Shown piece by piece: positions 25,950 to 39,165 of a DNA stretch of 64,000 bases. Every line of letters begins with the position of its first letter. Position 1 is the stretch's first letter. The translations under genes and the position numbers were made by a program. This DNA comes from Burkholderia puraquae. GTDB lineage: Bacteria; Pseudomonadota; Gammaproteobacteria; Burkholderiales; Burkholderiaceae. The stretch lies in contig NZ_NBYX01000026.1 in NCBI RefSeq assembly GCF_002099195.1, positions 1-64,000 of the forward strand, given 5' to 3'. A model generated the notes under the pieces. It searched no databases. It saw only the letters and a list, made by a program, of their open reading frames with translations, and had not been told where the DNA came from.

Positions 25950-27119
25950 ATGGATGCCCCTAAGGTCGTGGTCGAAGGTCTGTGCAAGGTGTTTGGAAGT
26001 AACCCGCAGCAGGCGCTCGACATGCTCGCCGCCGGCGCGACGAAGGACGATGTGCTCAAGCGCACCGGTCAGGTCGTCGGCGTGCACAACGTCTCCTTCG
26101 ATGTGCAGGAAGGCGAAATTTTCGTGCTGATGGGCCTGTCCGGCTCCGGCAAGTCCACGCTGATCCGCCTCGTGAACCGGCTGGTCGATCCGAGCGCCGG
26201 CAAGGTGATGATCGACGGGCTCGACGTCGCGTCGGCTCGCCGCTCGGCGCTGACCGCGCTGCGTCGCAAGGACATGAGCATGGTGTTCCAGTCGTTCGCG
26301 CTGATGCCGCATCGCACCGTGGTATCGAATGCCGCATTCGGCCTGGAAGTCGGCGGCATGGGCAAGAAGGAGCGCGAGCGCCGTGCGATGGAAGTGCTCG
26401 AGCAGGTCGGCCTCGCACCGTTCTCGCACAAGCTGCCGTCCGAGCTGTCGGGCGGCATGCAGCAGCGTGTCGGCCTCGCCCGTGCGCTGGCCGTGAACCC
26501 GTCGCTGATGATCATGGACGAGGCGTTCTCCGCGCTCGATCCGCTCAAGCGCCGGGAAATGCAGGATGTGCTGCTGCAACTGCAGAAGGAGCAGCGCCGC
26601 ACGATCATGTTCGTGTCGCACGATCTGGAGGAAGCGCTGCGCATCGGCAACCGCATCGCGATCATGGAAGGCGGCCGGCTCGTGCAGGTCGGCACGCCAC
26701 AGGACATCATCGCGAACCCGGCCGACGACTACGTGCGCGCGTTCTTCGACGGTATCGACACCAGCCGCTACCTCACGGCCGGCGACCTGATGCAGACGGG
26801 CGCCGTGCCGATCGTGTCGAAGTGCGATGCCGAGAACGTCGCGGCGACGCTGAACGGCAGTGCCGAATACGCGTTCGTGCTCGACGCCCAACGCAAGATC
26901 CGCGGCTTCGTCACGCGCGATGCGCTCGGTCAGGCCACGCCGTCCGTGCGGCCGATCGAAAGCATCCGGCGCGATGCGTCGCTCGAACATGTCGTCGCGC
27001 GCGTGGTCGCGAGCCCGAATGCACTGCCTGTCGTCGACGACGACGGCTGCTACTGCGGCTCGGTCGATCGTGCGCTCATCCTGAAGGCCATCACGCGTTC
27101 GCGAGGCTCCCATGTCTGA
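25950..27119 (+). CDS. choV: Choline/betaine ABC transporter ATP-binding subunit
   Basis: 389 residues of the ProV/OpuA type: Walker A GLSGSGKST (residues 62-70), signature LSGGMQQ (166-172), Walker B LMIMD (186-190) followed by EAFSALDP, and the family's N-terminal extension (NPQQALDMLAAGATKDDVL). The C-terminal ~100 residues form a CBS-like regulatory region. GAGGAG precedes the ATG. It overlaps the permease gene by eight bases. With choW and choX it imports choline or related quaternary amines at the inner membrane. The proV symbol would be equally acceptable. Confidence 0.9.
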   Translation: MDAPKVVVEGLCKVFGSNPQQALDMLAAGATKDDVLKRTGQVVGVHNVSFDVQEGEIFVLMGLSGSGKSTLIRLVNRLVDPSAGKVMIDGLDVASARRSALTALRRKDMSMVFQSFALMPHRTVVSNAAFGLEVGGMGKKERERRAMEVLEQVGLAPFSHKLPSELSGGMQQRVGLARALAVNPSLMIMDEAFSALDPLKRREMQDVLLQLQKEQRRTIMFVSHDLEEALRIGNRIAIMEGGRLVQVGTPQDIIANPADDYVRAFFDGIDTSRYLTAGDLMQTGAVPIVSKCDAENVAATLNGSAEYAFVLDAQRKIRGFVTRDALGQATPSVRPIESIRRDASLEHVVARVVASPNALPVVDDDGCYCGSVDRALILKAITRSRGSHV

Positions 27120-28008
27120 AATGATTCCGCTCGGTACCTGGGTCGACCAGTCCGTTCACTACCTGCTCGACCACGACGCCAAGACATTCGACGCGATCGG
27201 TCAAGCGATCGAGGGGCTCGCGGCATTCGTCGAGCACGGCCTGCAGGCGATCCCGATGTGGCTGATGATGGCGATCTTCATCGGCATCGGGCTGTGGCGG
27301 GTGGGCTGGCGCTTTGCGCTGTTCACCACCGCGTCGCTGCTGCTGATCTTCGCGACGGGCTTCTGGGACCAGACGGTCATCACGCTCGGCCTCACGCTGT
27401 CGTCGACGATCATCAGCCTCGTGCTCGGTATCCCGCTCGGCATCTGGGCCGCGAAGAGCAAGTGGGTCGCCGCGATCGTGCGCCCGATTCTCGACCTGAT
27501 GCAGACGATGCCCGCGTTCGTCTACCTGATTCCGGCCGCGATGTTGTTCGGTCTCGGCCGCGTGCCGGGGATCCTGTCGACGGTGATCTTCGCGATGCCG
27601 CCTGCGGTGCGCCTGACGAGCCTCGGTATCCGCCACGTGAACCGCGAGATCGTCGAAGCCGGCCAGGCCTTCGGCTGCACGCCGTGGCAACTGCTGTACA
27701 AGGTGCAGTTCCCGAACGCGCTGCCGTCGATCATGCAGGGCGTGAACCAGACGATCATGATGGCGCTGTCGATGGTGATCATCGCGTCGATGGTCGGCGC
27801 GGGCGGCCTCGGCAACGACGTGCTCGCCAGTATCCAGCGCCTCGACATCGGCCTCGGTTTCGAAAGCGGCCTGTCGGTCGTGCTGCTCGCGATCATTCTC
27901 GACCGCATCACCGAAAGCTTCGGCCGTGCACCGGGCACCGTGAAGGCGCCGCTGTTCTCGGGCCTCAAGCAGCTCTTTCGTGTGAAGGCTGCACCCGCGC
28001 AAGCCTGA
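27112..28008 (+). CDS. choW: Choline/betaine ABC transporter permease subunit
   Basis: 298 residues, about six transmembrane helices, with the ABC permease EAA-like loop (EAGQAFGCTPWQLLYKVQFP). The C-terminal region ends after a VLLAIILDRITESFG helix. The gene overlaps choV by eight bases and is followed by the regulator gene and choX, which together make the complete importer. Confidence 0.9.
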   Translation: MSEMIPLGTWVDQSVHYLLDHDAKTFDAIGQAIEGLAAFVEHGLQAIPMWLMMAIFIGIGLWRVGWRFALFTTASLLLIFATGFWDQTVITLGLTLSSTIISLVLGIPLGIWAAKSKWVAAIVRPILDLMQTMPAFVYLIPAAMLFGLGRVPGILSTVIFAMPPAVRLTSLGIRHVNREIVEAGQAFGCTPWQLLYKVQFPNALPSIMQGVNQTIMMALSMVIIASMVGAGGLGNDVLASIQRLDIGLGFESGLSVVLLAIILDRITESFGRAPGTVKAPLFSGLKQLFRVKAAPAQA

Positions 28009-28114
28009 CCCCGGCGGCCGGCACCCCCGGCCGCTCACCCTGAATACGGATATCGGCCTCCGCGGCTTGCGCTGCGGGGCTGGCCCCCTGCAACCTCCTC
28101 GCCAGGAGACCGAT

Positions 28115-29113
28115 GTGACGTCCGCCGTCGCTGTCGCGCCCGCCGCCTGCGTTTCACCGGTTTCGTCTCTCGCCCACTTCGGCTTCCTGACGCTGCCGAA
28201 CTTCTCGATGATCGCGTTCTCGAGCGCCGTCGAAGTGCTTCGGATGGCGAACTACGTCGGGCGTGCCGATCACTATCAGTGGTCGATCTATTCGCTCGAT
28301 GGCAGTCCGGCGCACGCCAGCAACGGCATCGCGGTGCGGCCCACGCAGGCGCTCGACTACACGAATCTGCCCGACGTGATGATCGTATGCGGCGGCATCC
28401 ACATTCGCGACGTGGTCGACGAGGGCGCGCGCGATACGCTCGCGGCGCTGGCCGAACGCGGGCTGCCGCTCGGCGGCATCTGCACGGGCGCGTATGCGCT
28501 GATGTCGAGCGGGCTGCTCGACGGCTATCGCTGCACCGTGCACTGGGAGAACCTGTCCGCGCTGCATTCCGAGTTTCCGCTGGTCGGTTTCGCCGACGAA
28601 CTGTTCGTCGTCGACCGCGACCGGCTGACCTGCACCGGCGGCACCGCGCCGCTCGACCTGATGCTGAACCTCGTCGGCATGCGGTTCGGTCAGCAACTGG
28701 CCGCGCAGGTATCCGAGCAGTTCATCCTGGAGCGCATCCGCAGCTCGACCGACACGCAGCCGATTCCGGTCGACGCGCGCGTCGGCTTCTCGCGCGCGGA
28801 GCTGATCGAGGTTGTGCGGCTGATGGAGGCGAACATCGAGGAGCCGCTGTCGCTCGAGGAACTCGCACGGCTCGTGCGGCTGTCGCAGCGGCACCTGCAG
28901 CGCATGTTCAAGGTGTACCTGAACGTGTCGCCCACCCACTATTACCTGACGCTGCGCCTGAAGCGCGCGCGTGACCTGCTGCGCACGACCGATGCGTCGA
29001 TCGCGCGCGTGACGACGGTCTGCGGATTTCATTCGCCCTGCCATTTCAGCAAGGCCTACCGTGCGCAGTTCGGCCACGCACCGAGCTACGAGCGCCGGTT
29101 GCCGGGGCGCTGA
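28115..29113 (+). CDS. GlxA-family regulator (PfpI-like domain plus AraC HTH)
   Basis: 332 residues from a GTG with CAGGAG six bases upstream. The N-terminal half is the DJ-1/PfpI-like sensor domain (GGICTGAYALMSSGLLDGYR, where the Cys of the nucleophile elbow is kept). The C-terminal half is an AraC helix-turn-helix pair (LSLEELARLVRLSQRHLQRM; CGFHSPCHFSKAYRAQFG). Regulators of this type (GbdR, CdhR) control choline, betaine and carnitine genes. Its place between the permease and the binding-protein genes points to local control of choline uptake. Confidence 0.88.
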   Translation: MTSAVAVAPAACVSPVSSLAHFGFLTLPNFSMIAFSSAVEVLRMANYVGRADHYQWSIYSLDGSPAHASNGIAVRPTQALDYTNLPDVMIVCGGIHIRDVVDEGARDTLAALAERGLPLGGICTGAYALMSSGLLDGYRCTVHWENLSALHSEFPLVGFADELFVVDRDRLTCTGGTAPLDLMLNLVGMRFGQQLAAQVSEQFILERIRSSTDTQPIPVDARVGFSRAELIEVVRLMEANIEEPLSLEELARLVRLSQRHLQRMFKVYLNVSPTHYYLTLRLKRARDLLRTTDASIARVTTVCGFHSPCHFSKAYRAQFGHAPSYERRLPGR

Positions 29114-29211
29114 CCGACCCCATGGTCCGCGACGCCGCCGGGATCGCGGCGCGCGGCTTCAATAAGCGATCCCGTATTCAATCAAACGACATCACTTTGA
29201 GGAGAAGCAAG

Positions 29212-30159
29212 ATGAAGCGCCTATTGATCGCAGCGGTGTGCGGGATCGGGATAACCGCGCCGATGTCGGCCGTTTATGCGGCCGATCCGCCCGTGTGCAA
29301 GAACGTGCGCTTCGCGGATGTCGGCTGGTCCGACATCGCGGCGACCACGGGCCTCGCGTCGACGATGCTGCAGGGGCTCGGCTACAGCCCGACGAAGACG
29401 ATCGCATCGGTGCCGATCACGTTTGCCGGCATCAAGAGCAAGCAGATCGACGTGTTCCTCGGCTACTGGTCGCCGACGATGGACCCGATCATCCAGCCGT
29501 TCACGAAGGCCGGCACGATCAAGGTGCTCTCGACGCCGAACCTGACCGGCGCGAAATACACGCTCGCGGTGCCCGACTACGTGTACCAGGGCGGCCTGAA
29601 GTCGTTCGCGGACATCCAGAAGTACGCCGACAAGCTCAACGGCAAGATCTACGGGATCGAACCGGGCAACGACGGCAACCTGCTGATCAAGAAGATGATC
29701 GACGGCAACCAGTTCGGCCTCGGCAAGTTCAAGATGGTCGAGTCGAGCGAGGCCGGGATGCTGGTCGAGGTGAATCGCGCGATTCGCGACAAGCAGTGGA
29801 TCGTGTTCCTGGGATGGGAACCGCATCCGATGAACGTGCAGATGAAGATCGACTACCTGACCGGTGGTGACGACGTGTTCGGCCCGAACTACGGCGAAGC
29901 AAAGGTGCTGACGGCGACGCCGCCCGACTACGCGCAGCGCTGCCCGAACGTCGCGAAGTTCGTGTCGAACCTGCAGTTCACGACGACGATCGAGAACCAC
30001 GTGATGATGCCGATCATGAACAAGGAAGATCCGAACAAGGCGGCGGCGGCGTGGCTGAAGGCGAACCCGCAGGCGCTCGACAAGTGGCTCGCGGGCGTGA
30101 CGACGCTCGACGGCAAGCCGGGCCTGCCGGCGGTGAAGGCGTATCTCGGCGTGCATTGA
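29212..30159 (+). CDS. choX: Choline-binding periplasmic protein of the ABC transporter
   Basis: 315 residues with a Sec signal peptide (MKRLLIAAVCGIGITAPMSA, cleavage near AYA-A). The mature part matches ChoX/ProX type II binding proteins: VGWSDIAATTGLASTMLQGL, DVFLGYWSPTMD and WIVFLGWEPHPMN, the last two giving aromatic residues for a quaternary-ammonium cage. ATG 29212 follows GAGGAGAAGC; upstream in-frame codons lack a signal sequence. Choline rather than glycine betaine is inferred from these motifs. Confidence 0.9.
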   Translation: MKRLLIAAVCGIGITAPMSAVYAADPPVCKNVRFADVGWSDIAATTGLASTMLQGLGYSPTKTIASVPITFAGIKSKQIDVFLGYWSPTMDPIIQPFTKAGTIKVLSTPNLTGAKYTLAVPDYVYQGGLKSFADIQKYADKLNGKIYGIEPGNDGNLLIKKMIDGNQFGLGKFKMVESSEAGMLVEVNRAIRDKQWIVFLGWEPHPMNVQMKIDYLTGGDDVFGPNYGEAKVLTATPPDYAQRCPNVAKFVSNLQFTTTIENHVMMPIMNKEDPNKAAAAWLKANPQALDKWLAGVTTLDGKPGLPAVKAYLGVH

Positions 30160-30208
30160 GCGACGTGCTCGGGCTTTCGCCGGTTCCGCAAGCGGCTTGA
30201 CGGACGTG

Positions 30209-30246
30209 CGCCCCCCGTCCCGGGAAGATCCCGGGAACCGGGGGCG
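30209..30246. terminator. Nested GC-rich hairpin between convergent genes
   Basis: Outer stem CGCCCCC / GGGGGCG enclosing an inner TCCCGGG / CCCGGGA stem. No T-run follows. It probably separates choX transcription from the convergent glycosyltransferase gene and marks the left edge of the second island. Confidence 0.5.
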
Positions 30247-30287
30247 TCGGCATGTTTGTCCGGCCTGTTCAGGCGGGATGGTTCGAA

Positions 30288-31712
30288 TCAGGCATCAGGC
30301 GACGGCGTGAGGAGCCACGCGTGGATACCTCGAATCACGTCGCTCCAGTCACCTTCGCGGGTCTGCCGCAACGCGGTTGCATGCCTGATCCACGGGCTCG
30401 CGGGACCCTCGACGCCCCAACGCCAATCGCCACAGATGTGGGTCGGCACACAAGTCCGCCTACCCATCATGGCCGCCAGATTGGCGACGCCCGAATCGAC
30501 CGCGATCACGGCGTCCAGTTGAGCCATGCATGCCGCCGTGTCGCCAAAATCTCGAATCACCGGCTGGTAGTGACTGACATTGCGGGCCGGCGTGCCTGCC
30601 AGCGCCGCGGCAGCGGGATGATGCAGATTCACGAAATGCATGCATTCCGCCGTGGCCGGGTGTTCCACGATCTCGTTGACCGCATCGAGCGGCAGGCTGC
30701 GACGGCTGGCCCAGCACCTGACGATGGCGCCCTTTTCAGGCCAGTGTCGTTGCACGCAATCCCAAAACAGTCCGATCAGTTTCTTGCCCGGATGCTTCTC
30801 GCGCACTTGCGCCGCCCATTCGGCAGCGATCCGCTGCTTTTGCGGCGGCACCTGGATATAGGGCACGAACCATTGCTCAGCCACGCGCGTGTGCCGGGCT
30901 TTCAGCATGGGCAAATGGAGCAGCGTTGCATGCAGGTCCGGCGCAAATCCATCCACACGTGATTGCAGTTCGCCCGGCAACGGAGCCTGAAACTGCATCG
31001 GATTGGGGGCGGCGACGGCCTCGCAATGCGGCAGCGACGCCTGCATGAGCGCGTGGCTCTGCGGATGGCAGGTGAGCATGACGTGCGCGCCTTCATCGAG
31101 CCAATCGGACACGCAGGCTGCCAGGAGAAAGTTGTCGCCGAATCCGTGTTCATGCGTGATCAGGACACGCTTGCCGCGCACCTCCGATTCACCATCCCAT
31201 GTCGGGATGCCGATCGGGCGGTAATTGGCGGACAGGCTGGGAACGTCGTCGCGCATTCGCCAATAGGCGAAGCCGCGCGGATCGCCTGCCTTGAGCATCG
31301 CCTCGCCCATCGCGAATCCGATCGATGCCGTCATCTCGGCATGACCGGATGCGGCCATCCGAAAGGCTTCATCGAGCAGCGGAATGGCCTGTGCGAGATC
31401 GCCGGCCATCATCAGGCTCATGCCCAGTCGCAAGCGGTAGAGTTCAGGGCGGCTGTGCCGCGACGGATCACGTTTCCATGTCTCGGCGGCTTCGACATAG
31501 CGGCCCAGCAGGTAGAGTGCATCGGCACGCCGTGTAATGGCAACGGCGTCGTGCGGATCGAGCGCCAGCGCGCGATCGGCCCAGGGGAGCATCTCCTCTT
31601 CTCGCCTGAGGGCAGTCAGCAATTCACAGATGCGGTGCAGAAGCGCGGGATCATGCGCATCGCCTGCGTATTGCGTCTGCGCGATATGCAGTTGCTGTTC
31701 GAGGTCGACCAT
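30288..31712 (-). CDS. TPR protein with GT9-like glycosyltransferase domain
   Basis: 474 residues. The N-terminal ~150 residues are tetratricopeptide-like helices (LLHRICELLTALRREEEMLP; RADALYLLGRYVEAAETWKR; GMSLMMAGDLAQAIPLLDEA). The C-terminal ~300 residues match the heptosyltransferase/GT9-like fold, ending with IRDFGDTAACMAQLDAVIAV followed by DSGVANLAAMMG, where nucleotide-sugar binding occurs. Such TPR-GT proteins glycosylate proteins or surface sugars. It is the last gene of a minus-strand set that starts with the 42-residue peptide, 137 bases after the M29-like gene. The acceptor is unknown. Confidence 0.8.
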   Translation of the reverse strand: MVDLEQQLHIAQTQYAGDAHDPALLHRICELLTALRREEEMLPWADRALALDPHDAVAITRRADALYLLGRYVEAAETWKRDPSRHSRPELYRLRLGMSLMMAGDLAQAIPLLDEAFRMAASGHAEMTASIGFAMGEAMLKAGDPRGFAYWRMRDDVPSLSANYRPIGIPTWDGESEVRGKRVLITHEHGFGDNFLLAACVSDWLDEGAHVMLTCHPQSHALMQASLPHCEAVAAPNPMQFQAPLPGELQSRVDGFAPDLHATLLHLPMLKARHTRVAEQWFVPYIQVPPQKQRIAAEWAAQVREKHPGKKLIGLFWDCVQRHWPEKGAIVRCWASRRSLPLDAVNEIVEHPATAECMHFVNLHHPAAAALAGTPARNVSHYQPVIRDFGDTAACMAQLDAVIAVDSGVANLAAMMGRRTCVPTHICGDWRWGVEGPASPWIRHATALRQTREGDWSDVIRGIHAWLLTPSPDA

Positions 31713-31849
31713 GACGATTCGGTTCTGGCGTGCGCGGTCACCGTGCAGGACGCGCGTAACGTGAACCTGCGCGAGCAGGATGCCGAAGGTGGAAATCGCG
31801 AGGCTGGCACCTTGTCGGCGCGTCGATGCCGGCCGTGTCGTCGAAGGTG

Positions 31850-32806
31850 CTACACACGGAACGAGCCGTCGAAGATGACGGTGTCGTCGAACAGTATTTT
31901 TCCGGACGAAAACACGAGATCCAGATGATGGCTGCCGCGTTCACCGCCGCCGAGGCCAAGGTGCAGCCCGGGATGGCGTTCTTCGAAACTGGCATTTCGT
32001 CCATGCAGCCTGACGTTCAGGTTCGTACCGATCCCGAACTCTTCGACGATCCTGTTTCCCGCACATTTATCCAGATATAACTTGAAATCGTCCTCGAGCT
32101 GTCGATTGGACGATTCGACGCTGATCACCTGGCTTCGCTCGATCCGGATGTTCAATATCGGGTCGATGACGCCGTACTTGATGGCAAAGGGCACCGTGCT
32201 CAAAAAGGTGCCGCCGAATACGACGTTTCCGGTCAAGTCGAGTACCCGGGTCGCCACTTCGCCAGGCATCAAATCATAGTGGTTGCGGCCATCCAGGCTT
32301 TTCCATGTCTGATCCAGCGTTCCGTGCAGCGAGCCGCCAAAACCGTCGTGAAATTGCACGTGTCGAGCGCGTTGTGCGGCCGCGATGATTCGTTCGTTGC
32401 GTGCGGCAATGTCGTCGATGCTCTCGGAAAAGGCCTCTTTGAAGAATTCGCCGTACTCGCGGAGCAATACCGACTTCTTCCAGTGCTCGGCCATTTTCGG
32501 CTTGAGCGGCGAGATGAATGATGGCCCGTGCGGGTTGATGTCGGAACGTACGGAGGAGTCGTACATGAAGATGAACATGTCACATCGATCGATTTCCTCG
32601 ATGACCTGTTCGTGATTTTCCGTGTCGAGCTCGACGTAGGTGAACGAGTATTCCAGATTTTTCGGACAATGCCGAATGATCGATTGCGCGGTATTTCTCT
32701 GGCTTGTGTCCGAGCCAACCAGGATGTGGGCGCCGGGCGCGTTTTTCTGCATCATGGCTGGATGTCCGCGGACGCACGAAAAGAAATTTTCGACACTTTT
32801 TTCCAT
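31850..32806 (-). CDS. M29 aminopeptidase / NicX-like metalloenzyme homologue
   Basis: 318 residues from ATG 32806, chosen because CCGGAG precedes it; the frame extends to 32854 but that ATG lies inside a terminator hairpin. The C-terminal half has the metal-site pattern of the M29 aminopeptidase and 2,5-dihydroxypyridine dioxygenase family: VEEFGIGTN, EERHPGLHLGLGGG and HHLDLVF. The N-terminal half is divergent (ILVGSDTSQRNTAQSIIRHC). The metal ligands survive, so it is probably an enzyme, but the reaction cannot be told. Its position right after the peptide gene suggests it acts on that peptide. Confidence 0.65.
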   Translation of the reverse strand: MEKSVENFFSCVRGHPAMMQKNAPGAHILVGSDTSQRNTAQSIIRHCPKNLEYSFTYVELDTENHEQVIEEIDRCDMFIFMYDSSVRSDINPHGPSFISPLKPKMAEHWKKSVLLREYGEFFKEAFSESIDDIAARNERIIAAAQRARHVQFHDGFGGSLHGTLDQTWKSLDGRNHYDLMPGEVATRVLDLTGNVVFGGTFLSTVPFAIKYGVIDPILNIRIERSQVISVESSNRQLEDDFKLYLDKCAGNRIVEEFGIGTNLNVRLHGRNASFEERHPGLHLGLGGGERGSHHLDLVFSSGKILFDDTVIFDGSFRV

Positions 32807-32837
32807 AACGATCTCCGGGATATCCAGGTTCTGGATC

Positions 32838-32867
32838 AAAAAATGGCGGATCATTGCGATCCGCCAT
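32838..32867 (-). terminator. Intrinsic terminator/attenuator after the 42-residue peptide gene
   Basis: A perfect 10-bp stem (ATGGCGGATC / GATCCGCCAT, loop of five) followed on the minus strand by a run of T at 32843-32838. It lies 17 bases after the peptide stop and just before the M29-like gene, so the peptide should be made in excess and the enzymes by read-through. Confidence 0.85.
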
Positions 32868-32884
32868 CATCCGACGCTGCTTGC

Positions 32885-33013
32885 TTATGCCCACAGAGCA
32901 GTTGCGAATGGAATGACTGCGCTGTCTTTCATCATCTCGACCCAGTCTTCATGCTGATCTTCCTGCATCCATTCGATCAGCGGAAGATCCTGCTTTTCTT
33001 GATTTTCGTTCAT
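32885..33013 (-). CDS. 42-residue peptide, candidate modified-peptide precursor
   Basis: ATG 33013 has AAGGA seven bases upstream. The peptide has a strongly acidic, Gln/Glu/Asp-rich N-terminal ~30 residues (DLPLIEWMQEDQHEDW) like a leader, and a hydrophobic tail of 12 residues SAVIPFATALWA. No Cys, no signal peptide. It is followed at once by an intrinsic terminator and then by an M29-like metalloenzyme and a glycosyltransferase gene. That is the architecture of a ribosomally synthesised, post-translationally modified peptide locus. No known precursor family is recognised. A regulatory or toxin-type small protein is the alternative. Confidence 0.6.
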   Translation of the reverse strand: MNENQEKQDLPLIEWMQEDQHEDWVEMMKDSAVIPFATALWA

Positions 33014-33284
33014 GATGATTTCCTTGTTGAGGAATTGAACTGCGAACATCGCAAATCGTCCTCTAAAATTCGAGGGCAGATTTAGCGATTGAGTGGGCGC
33101 ATGTGGTTGCGCTGATTGTATGGGGTAAAAATCAATGATTATTTTCTGTTAATCGTCAGCCTACATTAGCAGTTGAATTTGCAGGGTGACAATGTAACGT
33201 AAACCCTATGGTTGTTTTGATTTTGTCAACATTGGTGCTGGTATTGTTTGGATATCGAACAAATAAAACGGGGCGTGTTTGAAA
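33014..33284. other. AT-rich regulatory region between divergent small genes
   Basis: About 270 bases, clearly AT-richer than surroundings (GATTATTTTCTGTTAATCG). It contains TTGACA on the minus strand at 33229-33224, a possible -35 for the peptide operon, but no well-spaced -10. Such AT-rich islands are often silenced by H-NS-like proteins; this is inference. Confidence 0.45.
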
Positions 33285-33563
33285 ATGGGAATAAACGCGC
33301 CGATTGATGTCGATATCGAATACTCGATCGCGGCGTTGTTGCATGAATCGGTCGTAGTGACGAGGCAAGGGCCTATGGTGATGATTTCAGGCAATGCGAA
33401 CGGATTGCGGACGTGCGAGGCCTGCCATGCGGTTCAGCACGCCCACCCGGATGGCAACCTCGGCTGCCTGCGATGCGGTGCGTCGTGCCCACCGGCGGTT
33501 ACGATGGTGCGCCGAATAGGTAAATCGGCGCACCATCGAAGCATGGCTCAGGTCACTTCTTGA
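33285..33563 (+). CDS. Small protein with zinc-ribbon-like Cys pattern (uncertain)
   Basis: A 92-residue frame from ATG 33285. The C-terminal half has CEAC at 33415-33426 and CLRCGASC about 13 residues later, like a small zinc ribbon; the N-terminal half reads IDVDIEYSIAALLHES. No clear ribosome site precedes the start and the frame overlaps the lectin gene end by 11 bases, so it may not be a true gene. Confidence 0.35.
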   Translation: MGINAPIDVDIEYSIAALLHESVVVTRQGPMVMISGNANGLRTCEACHAVQHAHPDGNLGCLRCGASCPPAVTMVRRIGKSAHHRSMAQVTS

Positions 33564-33993
33564 AAGAATCCTGGGGGACCGGAGCCGGGCTCCAGATCTC
33601 CGCATCCGATGCGTTTGCCGCGAATGTCCAGATGGGCGTGCCGTTCGCGACCTTTCTCCATTGGAGGTCGAAGACAAATTGCGAATTGGCCACGTTTTCG
33701 ATGTAGCCCGATTGCGTGTCGTCCGATTGCGGGTCGAATTGCCATTGCTGAGTGGCCGACGCCTGGTTTTTCACGTAGGTGTTCAGGAAAAGGTATTGCT
33801 CGCTGGATATCGTTCCGCAGTCGATGGCGAGCTTGGGGTCGCTGTGCAGCGTGATTCCGCCATCCGGTTGGAAGTCCCACTCGGTATACAGGTGGTCCGT
33901 AGTGGCGGGAACGAGCACCACCCTGTTGCCTTTGACGCGATCGGTGACGCCGATGAGCCAGCTGGTATTGGCCGTGTAATAAATTCTTGCCAT
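33553..33993 (-). CDS. Ricin-type (beta-trefoil) lectin-like protein
   Basis: 146 residues with AGAGGA before the ATG. Three repeats with the lectin's aromatic strand are visible (TEWDFQPDGGITLHS; QQWQFDPQSD; IWTFAANASDAEIWSP). There is no signal peptide, so it is cytosolic or exported by another route. Ricin-type domains bind sugars. It lies upstream of the peptide operon on the same strand, 540 bases away, in the same AT-rich island. A functional link with the glycosyltransferase is possible but unproven. Confidence 0.7.
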   Translation of the reverse strand: MARIYYTANTSWLIGVTDRVKGNRVVLVPATTDHLYTEWDFQPDGGITLHSDPKLAIDCGTISSEQYLFLNTYVKNQASATQQWQFDPQSDDTQSGYIENVANSQFVFDLQWRKVANGTPIWTFAANASDAEIWSPAPVPQDSFKK

Positions 33994-34210
33994 TTTTTCC
34001 TCTGAGGGGTAATTGGATGAGTCGATAAATGAATGCTTCCTTCCCGACAGCAGCCTCACACGGAAATCATACTTTCCACAAGATCCTTGATGTATCTGCA
34101 TATAATCGACGAAAAATCGTCGGCGCTTTATTGGCAAGGTTTGAGGATGGGCTTCTGCCTGGGATAAACATTAGGCCCGTCACATCGCTGAATCAATTAC
34201 ATGCGATTAC

Positions 34211-34757: not shown

Positions 34758-35183
34758 TCACGATCCCTTCGTCGCCGCCGGCACGTCGAACACGCGATCG
34801 AACGCCCACTGGAATACGAACGCGTAACAGAAGAAGAACGCGAACAGCCCGATATCGACGACGAACGCGTCGAGCCACGAGATATCGAGCCACCACGACA
34901 CGACGGGCACCAGGATGAAGATCAGCCCGCCTTCGAATCCGGTGGCGTGCAGGATCCGCCGCCCGAGCGTGCGTGCCGGCTGGCGGCGCGACGCTTCCCA
35001 GCGCTCGAACAGCGCGTTGAAGATCAGGTTCCACAGCATTGCGATCGCCGACATCGTCGCCGACAGCGCGCCCGAATAGACGAGGTCGTGCTTGAAGATC
35101 GCCGCGATCACGGGCGAGATGCAGGAAATCGCGATCGCTTCGTAGAGCATCGCCTGCGTGATCCTGCGCGGTAGGCCTTGCAC
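34758..35183 (-). CDS. PACE-family multidrug/biocide efflux transporter
   Basis: 141 residues, four transmembrane helices in two tandem bacterial transmembrane pair domains. The first has the conserved Glu (MLYEAIAIS) needed for proton coupling in AceI; the second has HATGFEGGLIFILVPVVSWW. PACE pumps export chlorhexidine, acriflavine and short diamines. GTG 35183 with CCGGAG upstream is chosen over the longer frame because it gives the family length (AceI is ~144). A LysR gene is divergent from it, and regulation by that protein is likely, as with AceR-AceI. Confidence 0.85.
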   Translation of the reverse strand: MQGLPRRITQAMLYEAIAISCISPVIAAIFKHDLVYSGALSATMSAIAMLWNLIFNALFERWEASRRQPARTLGRRILHATGFEGGLIFILVPVVSWWLDISWLDAFVVDIGLFAFFFCYAFVFQWAFDRVFDVPAATKGS

Positions 35184-35330
35184 GTTGTTTCTCCGGTTCG
35201 ACGCCAGTCGCCGCGGCACCGTGCCGCGACGTCCCGCAAGGCTATCCGCGTTGCACGCCTGCTTCAATTCACCTAATCTCACCCCGATTCAATCGAATTC
35301 AACCCGGCCCGATCCGGCCTGCGAGGCCCC

Positions 35331-38475: not shown

Positions 38476-39165
38476 CTAAACCGGAATCGATCGCCCGCGC
38501 ATCCTGATCCCGAGCCGCACGATGCCGATCACCGCATTCGACAGCCACGTGAGCAGGCGCGGCATCCCGCGCCGGCGGATATCGAGCAGCAGCACGATCC
38601 GCACGGCGTCGCTGTCGTTCCACACCTCGTGCATGAACGTGTCGTCCCACAGCAGGAAGCGTCCTTCGTCGAGCCGGTATTCGTGGCCGTCGATCTTCAG
38701 CACGGCGGCCGGCGTGCCGTCGGCGCGCTTCGGCATCGACAGCACGAGATAGCCGCGCAGGATGCCGCGAAACGGCCCGCGATGCGGGGGAATGTGCTTG
38801 CCGGGCGCGAGGAACGACAGCGATGCGGACAGCACGTCCGGCGACGCCGCGACGATCGACGCGACGGTCGGACAGCGCGACAGGTTGCGCGGGAACGGCT
38901 GGCCGTACGCCTGCATGATGAACATCCGCCAGTCGCGTGCGTCGTTGGCCGAGATGTCGTACTGCTCGCGCATGATCTCGTGAAAGCGCGGGATGCGCGG
39001 CATGTCGCGCGCCACGGCGAATGCCTCTGCCTGGATGTCGGCCCACGCACGGACGAAACGCTCGGCATCGGGAAACGCGGCCGGGTCGAGCACAGCGCCG
39101 CCGTCGATATGACGGTCGTACAGCGTGCGCAGCAGGCCGGCAACGTAGTCGTAAGCGACGGACAT
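38476..39165 (-). CDS. Aspartyl/asparaginyl beta-hydroxylase-family oxygenase
   Basis: 229 residues of the Fe(II)/2-oxoglutarate family: SFLAPGKHIPPHRGPFRGIL (first metal His), LRGYLVLSMP, and the late WDDTFMHEVWNDS (second His). LpxO, which hydroxylates lipid A acyl chains, belongs to this family, but assignment to LpxO is uncertain. A hydrophobic stretch near the C-terminus (LLTWLSNAVIGIVRLGI) may anchor it to the membrane. Confidence 0.82.
   Translation of the reverse strand: MSVAYDYVAGLLRTLYDRHIDGGAVLDPAAFPDAERFVRAWADIQAEAFAVARDMPRIPRFHEIMREQYDISANDARDWRMFIMQAYGQPFPRNLSRCPTVASIVAASPDVLSASLSFLAPGKHIPPHRGPFRGILRGYLVLSMPKRADGTPAAVLKIDGHEYRLDEGRFLLWDDTFMHEVWNDSDAVRIVLLLDIRRRGMPRLLTWLSNAVIGIVRLGIRMRGRSIPV

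Follow-up and report, generated by a model that had tools for sequence, protein, structure and literature searches.

Among the closest described relatives of the system considered here are CgnB and CgnE, two proteins of crocagin biosynthesis in Chondromyces crocatus (PDB 6zsv and 6zsu). The crocagin report (PMC10070186) gives the ligands of the dinuclear metal site of CgnB and describes CgnB-like proteins in about 100 genomes, Beta- and Gammaproteobacteria included, with RiPPER-predicted precursors in the supplements. Here we describe a gene for a 42-residue peptide and a neighbouring gene for a protein of this fold in a stretch of 64,000 nucleotides from Burkholderia puraquae (contig NZ_NBYX01000026.1), hereafter the window. 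The two genes probably form a minimal system resembling those of ribosomally synthesised and post-translationally modified peptides (RiPPs), made up of a precursor peptide and a single CgnB-type metalloprotein. The protein family is already known from the crocagin work; the recurrent, almost unchanged peptide-protein pair suggests an undescribed small molecule derived from the end of a ribosomal peptide. The locus comprises the following features.

32885..33013, minus strand: peptide gene, 42 residues, acidic and precursor-like; product of the open reading frame, MNENQEKQDLPLIEWMQEDQHEDWVEMMKDSAVIPFATALWA
Within the peptide: leader, about residues 1-31, and conserved tail, SAVIPFATALWA
33020..33025, minus strand: ribosome-binding site of the peptide gene, AAGGAA, by sequence
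32838..32867, minus strand: intercistronic hairpin with a perfect 10-bp stem, a 5-base loop and a T-run
31850..32806, minus strand: metalloprotein gene, 318 residues, predicted CgnB-like / NicX-M29 fold
32813..32816, minus strand: ribosome-binding site of the metalloprotein gene, GGAG, by sequence
30288..31712, minus strand: TPR/GT9-like gene, 474 residues, with TPR at about 1-153 and a GT9/TibC-like glycosyltransferase at about 175-473

All the genes, ribosome-binding sites and the hairpin of the initial annotation were recovered at these positions; the peptide reading frame also has a longer in-frame start at 33049.

The peptide-enzyme arrangement recurs far beyond chance. Of 65 genomes of the window's genus, 51 have the enzyme and 50 the peptide. 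In 54 of 55 enzyme matches the peptide stands 55-86 nucleotides upstream on the same strand, the sole unpaired match being a fragment in a genome that is 82% complete. The same holds in genus g307, which from its gene order we take to be pseudomonad-like: the enzyme occurs in 66 of 179 genomes and the peptide in 65, with 65 of 66 enzyme matches paired at 79-111 nucleotides (a count that leaves out 8 secondary rows), the exception being a 20-bit fragment, and all 30 loci read carry the peptide. The peptide lies directly upstream of the enzyme in 60/60 locus records examined (two collections, with some loci present twice and the window itself included as L006). Enzyme orthologues found mostly without a peptide gene, one of two outcomes that the initial annotation had named as counting against it, are thus not what these genera show, and its RiPP-like layout, a peptide gene directly beside an enzyme gene, is a recurrent one.

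Wider scans show a patchy distribution. Enzyme matches were found in 54 of 398 genomes of the family (48 in the window's genus and 6 elsewhere; among these six, the peptide accompanies the enzyme in G277, G322 and G308). At class level 4 of 369 genomes match: the window genome, G725 with the peptide, G432 as a remnant and G452 at 24 bits. In the order of a Klebsiella record the matches number three of 394, namely the Klebsiella genome, G1059 with the peptide, and G950. With the peptide as query, 4 of 299 genomes of the phylum match, the window genome and three of genus g307. No relatives of a second-copy enzyme (below) were found on viral contigs, nor of the window enzyme in phages, so there is no sign of phage carriage; the plasmid collection returned 3 records, all Burkholderia replicons of 3.2-3.5 Mb, whose enzymes are type II-like because they are 46-47% identical.

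The B. puraquae genome itself carries a second pair on another contig. Its peptide is 53% identical over residues 4-41, its enzyme (317 residues) is 49% identical to that of the window, and a hairpin again separates the genes; the TPR-glycosyltransferase is absent, which marks the peptide and the enzyme as the core unit.

Purifying selection on the peptide is strong. Its pN/pS (nonsynonymous over synonymous differences) is 0.058 for type I (last 28 codons, 9 sequences, pS 0.71), 0.126 for type II (28 distinct sequences) and 0.024 in g307 (36 codons, 27 sequences), compared with 0.174 for the type II enzyme; the sequence is kept across lineages although codons change. Values of 0.06-0.13 in types I and II also dispose of the second adverse outcome, unconserved peptide residues, and the proposal of a real, selected gene tied to an M29/NicX-fold protein is upheld. 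Across relatives the peptide spans 38-56 residues, with a net charge of -8 to -10 in eight examples, and ends in a nearly invariant core, (V/I)-P-F-x-T-(A/S)-(L/M)-W, followed by 1-2 variable residues (A, P, PV, PL, AV, PI or PF). A 12-row alignment has W15, H21, M27, M28, P35, F36, T38, L40 and W41 invariant. The tails VPVGTAMWPI (the divergent G1059 peptide) and VPFGTAMWP[FL] (g307) belong to peptides that relax H21, M27, F36 and L40, leaving Trp15, Met28, Pro35, Thr38 and Trp41 common to all.

The enzyme falls below every Pfam and NCBIfam cut-off, and its predicted structure has the fold of NicX, of M29 aminopeptidases and of CgnB/CgnE, as the initial annotation had guessed for M29/NicX; the CgnB fold spans the whole protein. 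The putative metal ligands are E183, E256, E276, H282, H294 and D296, and all six CgnB-type dinuclear ligands (E, E, E, H, H, D) are invariant in 87/87 non-identical sequences. NicX, a 2,5-dihydroxypyridine dioxygenase, uses a mononuclear Fe(II) site. The window enzyme, which shares 13% identity with NicX (PDB 7cn3 and 7cup), keeps all six dinuclear-site ligands, and it stands beside a dedicated peptide gene with no ring-cleavage context. A 14-row profile search of solved structures gave CgnB as best, though weak, match (E 0.071) and CgnE at 0.66, both aligned on the metal motif; a two-row query returned noise only.

The resemblance to crocagin is one of layout and of protein: a short precursor gene lies beside a CgnB-like gene, CgnB and CgnE share the predicted fold of the window enzyme, and CgnB also its metal site. 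The statement of the initial annotation that the locus fits no common class known is in this respect superseded. The differences are (i) a single CgnB-type copy per locus, with an intact metal site; (ii) no CgnC dioxygenase, CgnD hydrolase or CgnL methyltransferase seen adjacent; (iii) an acidic, longer precursor, whereas CgnA is basic, has 21 residues and ends in Ile-Tyr-Trp; and (iv) an almost invariant core. Among those neighbours that were scanned, no CgnC-type Fe/2-oxoglutarate dioxygenase was found adjacent in the window or common to the lineages. A Tyr-Trp core and a CgnC partner were both looked for; as neither was found, the locus is not classed as a crocagin pathway. Neither the peptide nor the enzyme received an informative name from Pfam, NCBIfam, PHROGs or PADLOC. 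Among the papers listed for it in one open-licence library none was found to name the peptide, and none contained the tail strings PFGTALW, PFATALW, PFGTAMW or VVPFGTA; the pair may already be listed in the supplements of PMC10070186. The small protein Os1348 of Pseudomonas Os17 was considered as a known version of the peptide and rejected, as it has 85 residues and other gene partners (PMC7726476).

We propose that the CgnB-like protein would bind the acidic leader and hold the core at its metal centre, where the C-terminal Thr-Ala-Leu/Met-Trp core would be modified in the region of the invariant Thr and Trp. The chemistry would most likely be a metal-assisted oxidation, elimination or cyclisation onto Trp, and host proteases could then free a small Trp-derived product. 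The core differs so little between several lineages that a single conserved compound (a signal, a metal ligand or something like a cofactor) is the probable product, rather than a fast-evolving antibiotic. The hairpin is likely to keep peptide transcripts more abundant than those of the enzyme. Where it is present, in the window's clade, the TPR-glycosyltransferase probably attaches a sugar, for which Ser31 would be the candidate site.

Several observations weigh against this proposal. The chief difficulty is the dependence of crocagin biosynthesis on CgnC, since no dioxygenase is adjacent here. The metal centre may carry out an oxidation or cyclisation alone (by fold, NicX is closest); otherwise an enzyme encoded elsewhere contributes, or the peptide is not a substrate at all but a partner. 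RiPP antibiotics do not usually have so constant a core, and the core here lacks the Tyr-Trp C-terminus, every peptide read having T(A/S)(L/M)W plus 1-2 residues. No adjacent gene other than the TPR-glycosyltransferase of window-type loci is common to the lineages. Among 17 Pfam-scanned neighbours (a subset of all) there is no CgnC-type dioxygenase, protease or methyltransferase, bar an aspartyl/asparaginyl beta-hydroxylase (PF05118, a 2-oxoglutarate oxygenase family) at 38476-39165 on the minus strand of the window, 5.5 kb from the peptide. The CgnB sequence match is not significant alone at its E value, and NicX is nearer by fold. Enzyme homologues also occur without the peptide, weakly (40-47 bits) in G178, G274 and G162, and as divergent second homologues in g307 (for example G1545:C1:2027536-2028480 at 133 bits and G1475:C39:24496-25086 at 108 bits); in G950 the contig stops at the enzyme, and a search for the peptide found none. 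The Fisher tests of co-occurrence take no account of shared ancestry. In type II the last 12 codons of the peptide have a pS of 0.079 against 0.232 for the whole gene, so constraint at the nucleotide (RNA) level may add to that on the protein. Finally, in crocagin neither CgnB nor CgnE alone alters the peptide, according to PMC10070186.

The alternative that fares best, which we nevertheless regard as unlikely, is a two-component complex without maturation, in which the peptide serves the metalloprotein as a small subunit, a ligand or an inhibitor, completing its fold or plugging its active site, and the metalloprotein, like NicX, oxygenates or hydrolyses a small molecule. Against this, the nearest relatives of the metalloprotein by sequence, though weakly so, are CgnB and CgnE, which act on or bind the crocagin precursor (PMC10070186); moreover, the C-terminal Trp tail with its 1-2 variable residues resembles a core, and a hairpin that would favour peptide excess speaks against subunits in a 1:1 ratio.

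An ordinary M29-type aminopeptidase that trims or degrades the peptide would fit the fold and the presence of all six ligands of the CgnB kind. We consider it improbable and reject the plain-protease reading: Pfam PF02073 (M29) has no match in the six family members scanned, a general peptidase would have no use for a conserved peptide gene of its own, and CgnB and CgnE were without aminopeptidase activity (PMC10070186). The protein also differs from AmpS, AmpT and PepS in being shorter (about 318 against about 400 residues) and in being tied to a peptide gene. A distant homologue, L091, does match PF02073. Another (L093:7313-8356, in G162) is flanked by a radical SAM gene, whose best NCBIfam matches are RiPP maturases (150.8 bits, where the cut-off is 525), and by a flavoprotein with below-cut-off NCBIfam matches to CoaBC and, more weakly, to the RiPP decarboxylase CypD. 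A RiPP-like setting may thus exist for a second protein of this fold. This row of three genes (L093:5711-8992, G162:C32), which lacks the peptide, is a separate candidate RiPP locus.

A bacteriocin-immunity or toxin-antitoxin-like pair, in which a toxic, hydrophobic-tailed peptide is neutralised by the protein, is more improbable still. A short peptide of this kind next to a single gene and its patchy presence (50/65 and 65/179 genomes) would suit such a pair. Against this, the peptide is acidic with no export signal evident by eye, its core is constant across orders, retention of the metal site in 87/87 sequences suggests catalysis, and PADLOC matches are weak (E 0.0019, to Cas2, for the second-copy enzyme at best, and 0.012 for the peptide).

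The hairpin invites a further explanation. In the window its stem begins 17 bases past the peptide stop, 32867-32858 pairing with 32852-32843 around the loop GCAAT, with T's at 32843-32838. A perfect stem of at least 7 pairs starts no more than 45 bases past the stop in 68 of 73 distinct downstream sequences (7/9 window-type, 33/33 type II or other, 28/31 g307), mostly at 15-17 bases; these counts allow G-U pairs, have no shuffle control and include many close relatives. Stem pairs change on both sides, from GGCGGATC/GATCCGCC to GGCGGGTC/GACCCGCC. A clear T-run follows only in some window-type Burkholderia loci (L001, L011, L034 and L074) and in L096/L099, so that the terminator of the initial annotation is an apt name for these, and hairpin fits the rest; type II and g307 elements have no T-run. 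In G1059 (L105:6918-8445) the order is reversed: the peptide gene follows that of the enzyme and has a hairpin of its own, while a decayed peptide-like remnant stands upstream, an arrangement that looks like duplication followed by loss; the peptide is thus not a leader obliged to precede the enzyme. Attenuation, with the reading frame translated only to govern read-through of the hairpin into the enzyme gene, as the initial annotation had also entertained, would account for the T-run hairpin 17 bases past the stop, for similar hairpins in most relatives and for the scarcity of synonymous changes in the final codons of type II peptides, but we reject it as the least probable explanation, given the G1059 gene order, a peptide sequence kept while codons change between lineages, the lack of a T-run in type II and the absence of any Rfam match at gathering score in 30000-34200.

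The TPR-glycosyltransferase, taken by the initial annotation as a member of the locus, is one in the window's clade only: by tblastn it is present in 22/22 window-type locus records and in 0/79 others, and it was found in none of the g307 loci, although flanks are in many cases limited to 1.5 kb and several of the records duplicate a locus. This restriction again makes the two-gene pair the core unit. The protein differs from GT9 heptosyltransferases and the TibC heptosyltransferase in its N-terminal TPR domain and in being present only in the window clade; its Pfam GT9 match is below cut-off and its model has a pLDDT (predicted model confidence) of only 69. Ser31 is present in every window-type peptide read, and types without the glycosyltransferase have Asp there (Lys in G1059); the L090 peptide has a Ser one position later. 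In a quick tree the window-type clade comprises Burkholderia, two Burkholderiaceae symbionts, Klebsiella sp. BIGb0407 and Enterobacterales CwR94, alongside a type II Burkholderia clade with G308 and a g307 clade; G725 and G1059 are long-branched and their placement is unsure. The enterobacterial members, at about 70% identity, branch within the window-type clade, which suggests that the three-gene cassette has moved horizontally.

Other neighbours are mixed. Just upstream of the peptide, a ricin-B-like lectin (33553-33993, minus strand; Pfam below cut-off) has no homologue among the genes called in 16 other compared loci. A glycine betaine-type ABC transporter with an AraC-family regulator (25950-30159) and a chlorhexidine-efflux (BTP) family protein (34758-35282) are ordinary neighbours. 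GNAT acetyltransferase genes adjoin the pair on the opposite strand in three lineages (L003:8169-8678, L105:8587-9141 and L039:4584-5087), perhaps by chance, as the L039 gene does not cluster with the type II one. In the divergent pair of G308, a 229-residue protein directly downstream of the enzyme (L090:6254-6943) has no Pfam or NCBIfam match; its MHHD-containing sequence gives the impression, and could suggest, that it is a haem-oxygenase-like diiron protein.

It is possible, and we put it forward tentatively, that the pair makes a new class of ribosomal-peptide-derived small molecule, conserved in the manner of a signal, metal ligand or cofactor, which a lone CgnB-type metalloprotein would build on the near-invariant Pro-Phe-x-Thr-Ala-(Leu/Met)-Trp tail with no partner oxygenase. 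Roughly three in four of the species sampled in the window's genus, and roughly one in three in the pseudomonad-like genus, have the pair. If the proposed RiPP-like system is real, it would be a very common, apparently unnamed peptide system spanning two large groups of bacteria, and its reconstitution would take no more than two genes. The action of a lone CgnB-type metal centre on a peptide that contains Trp, which in crocagin biosynthesis is still a proposal, could then be tested directly, and a conserved small molecule common to distantly related bacteria might come to light.

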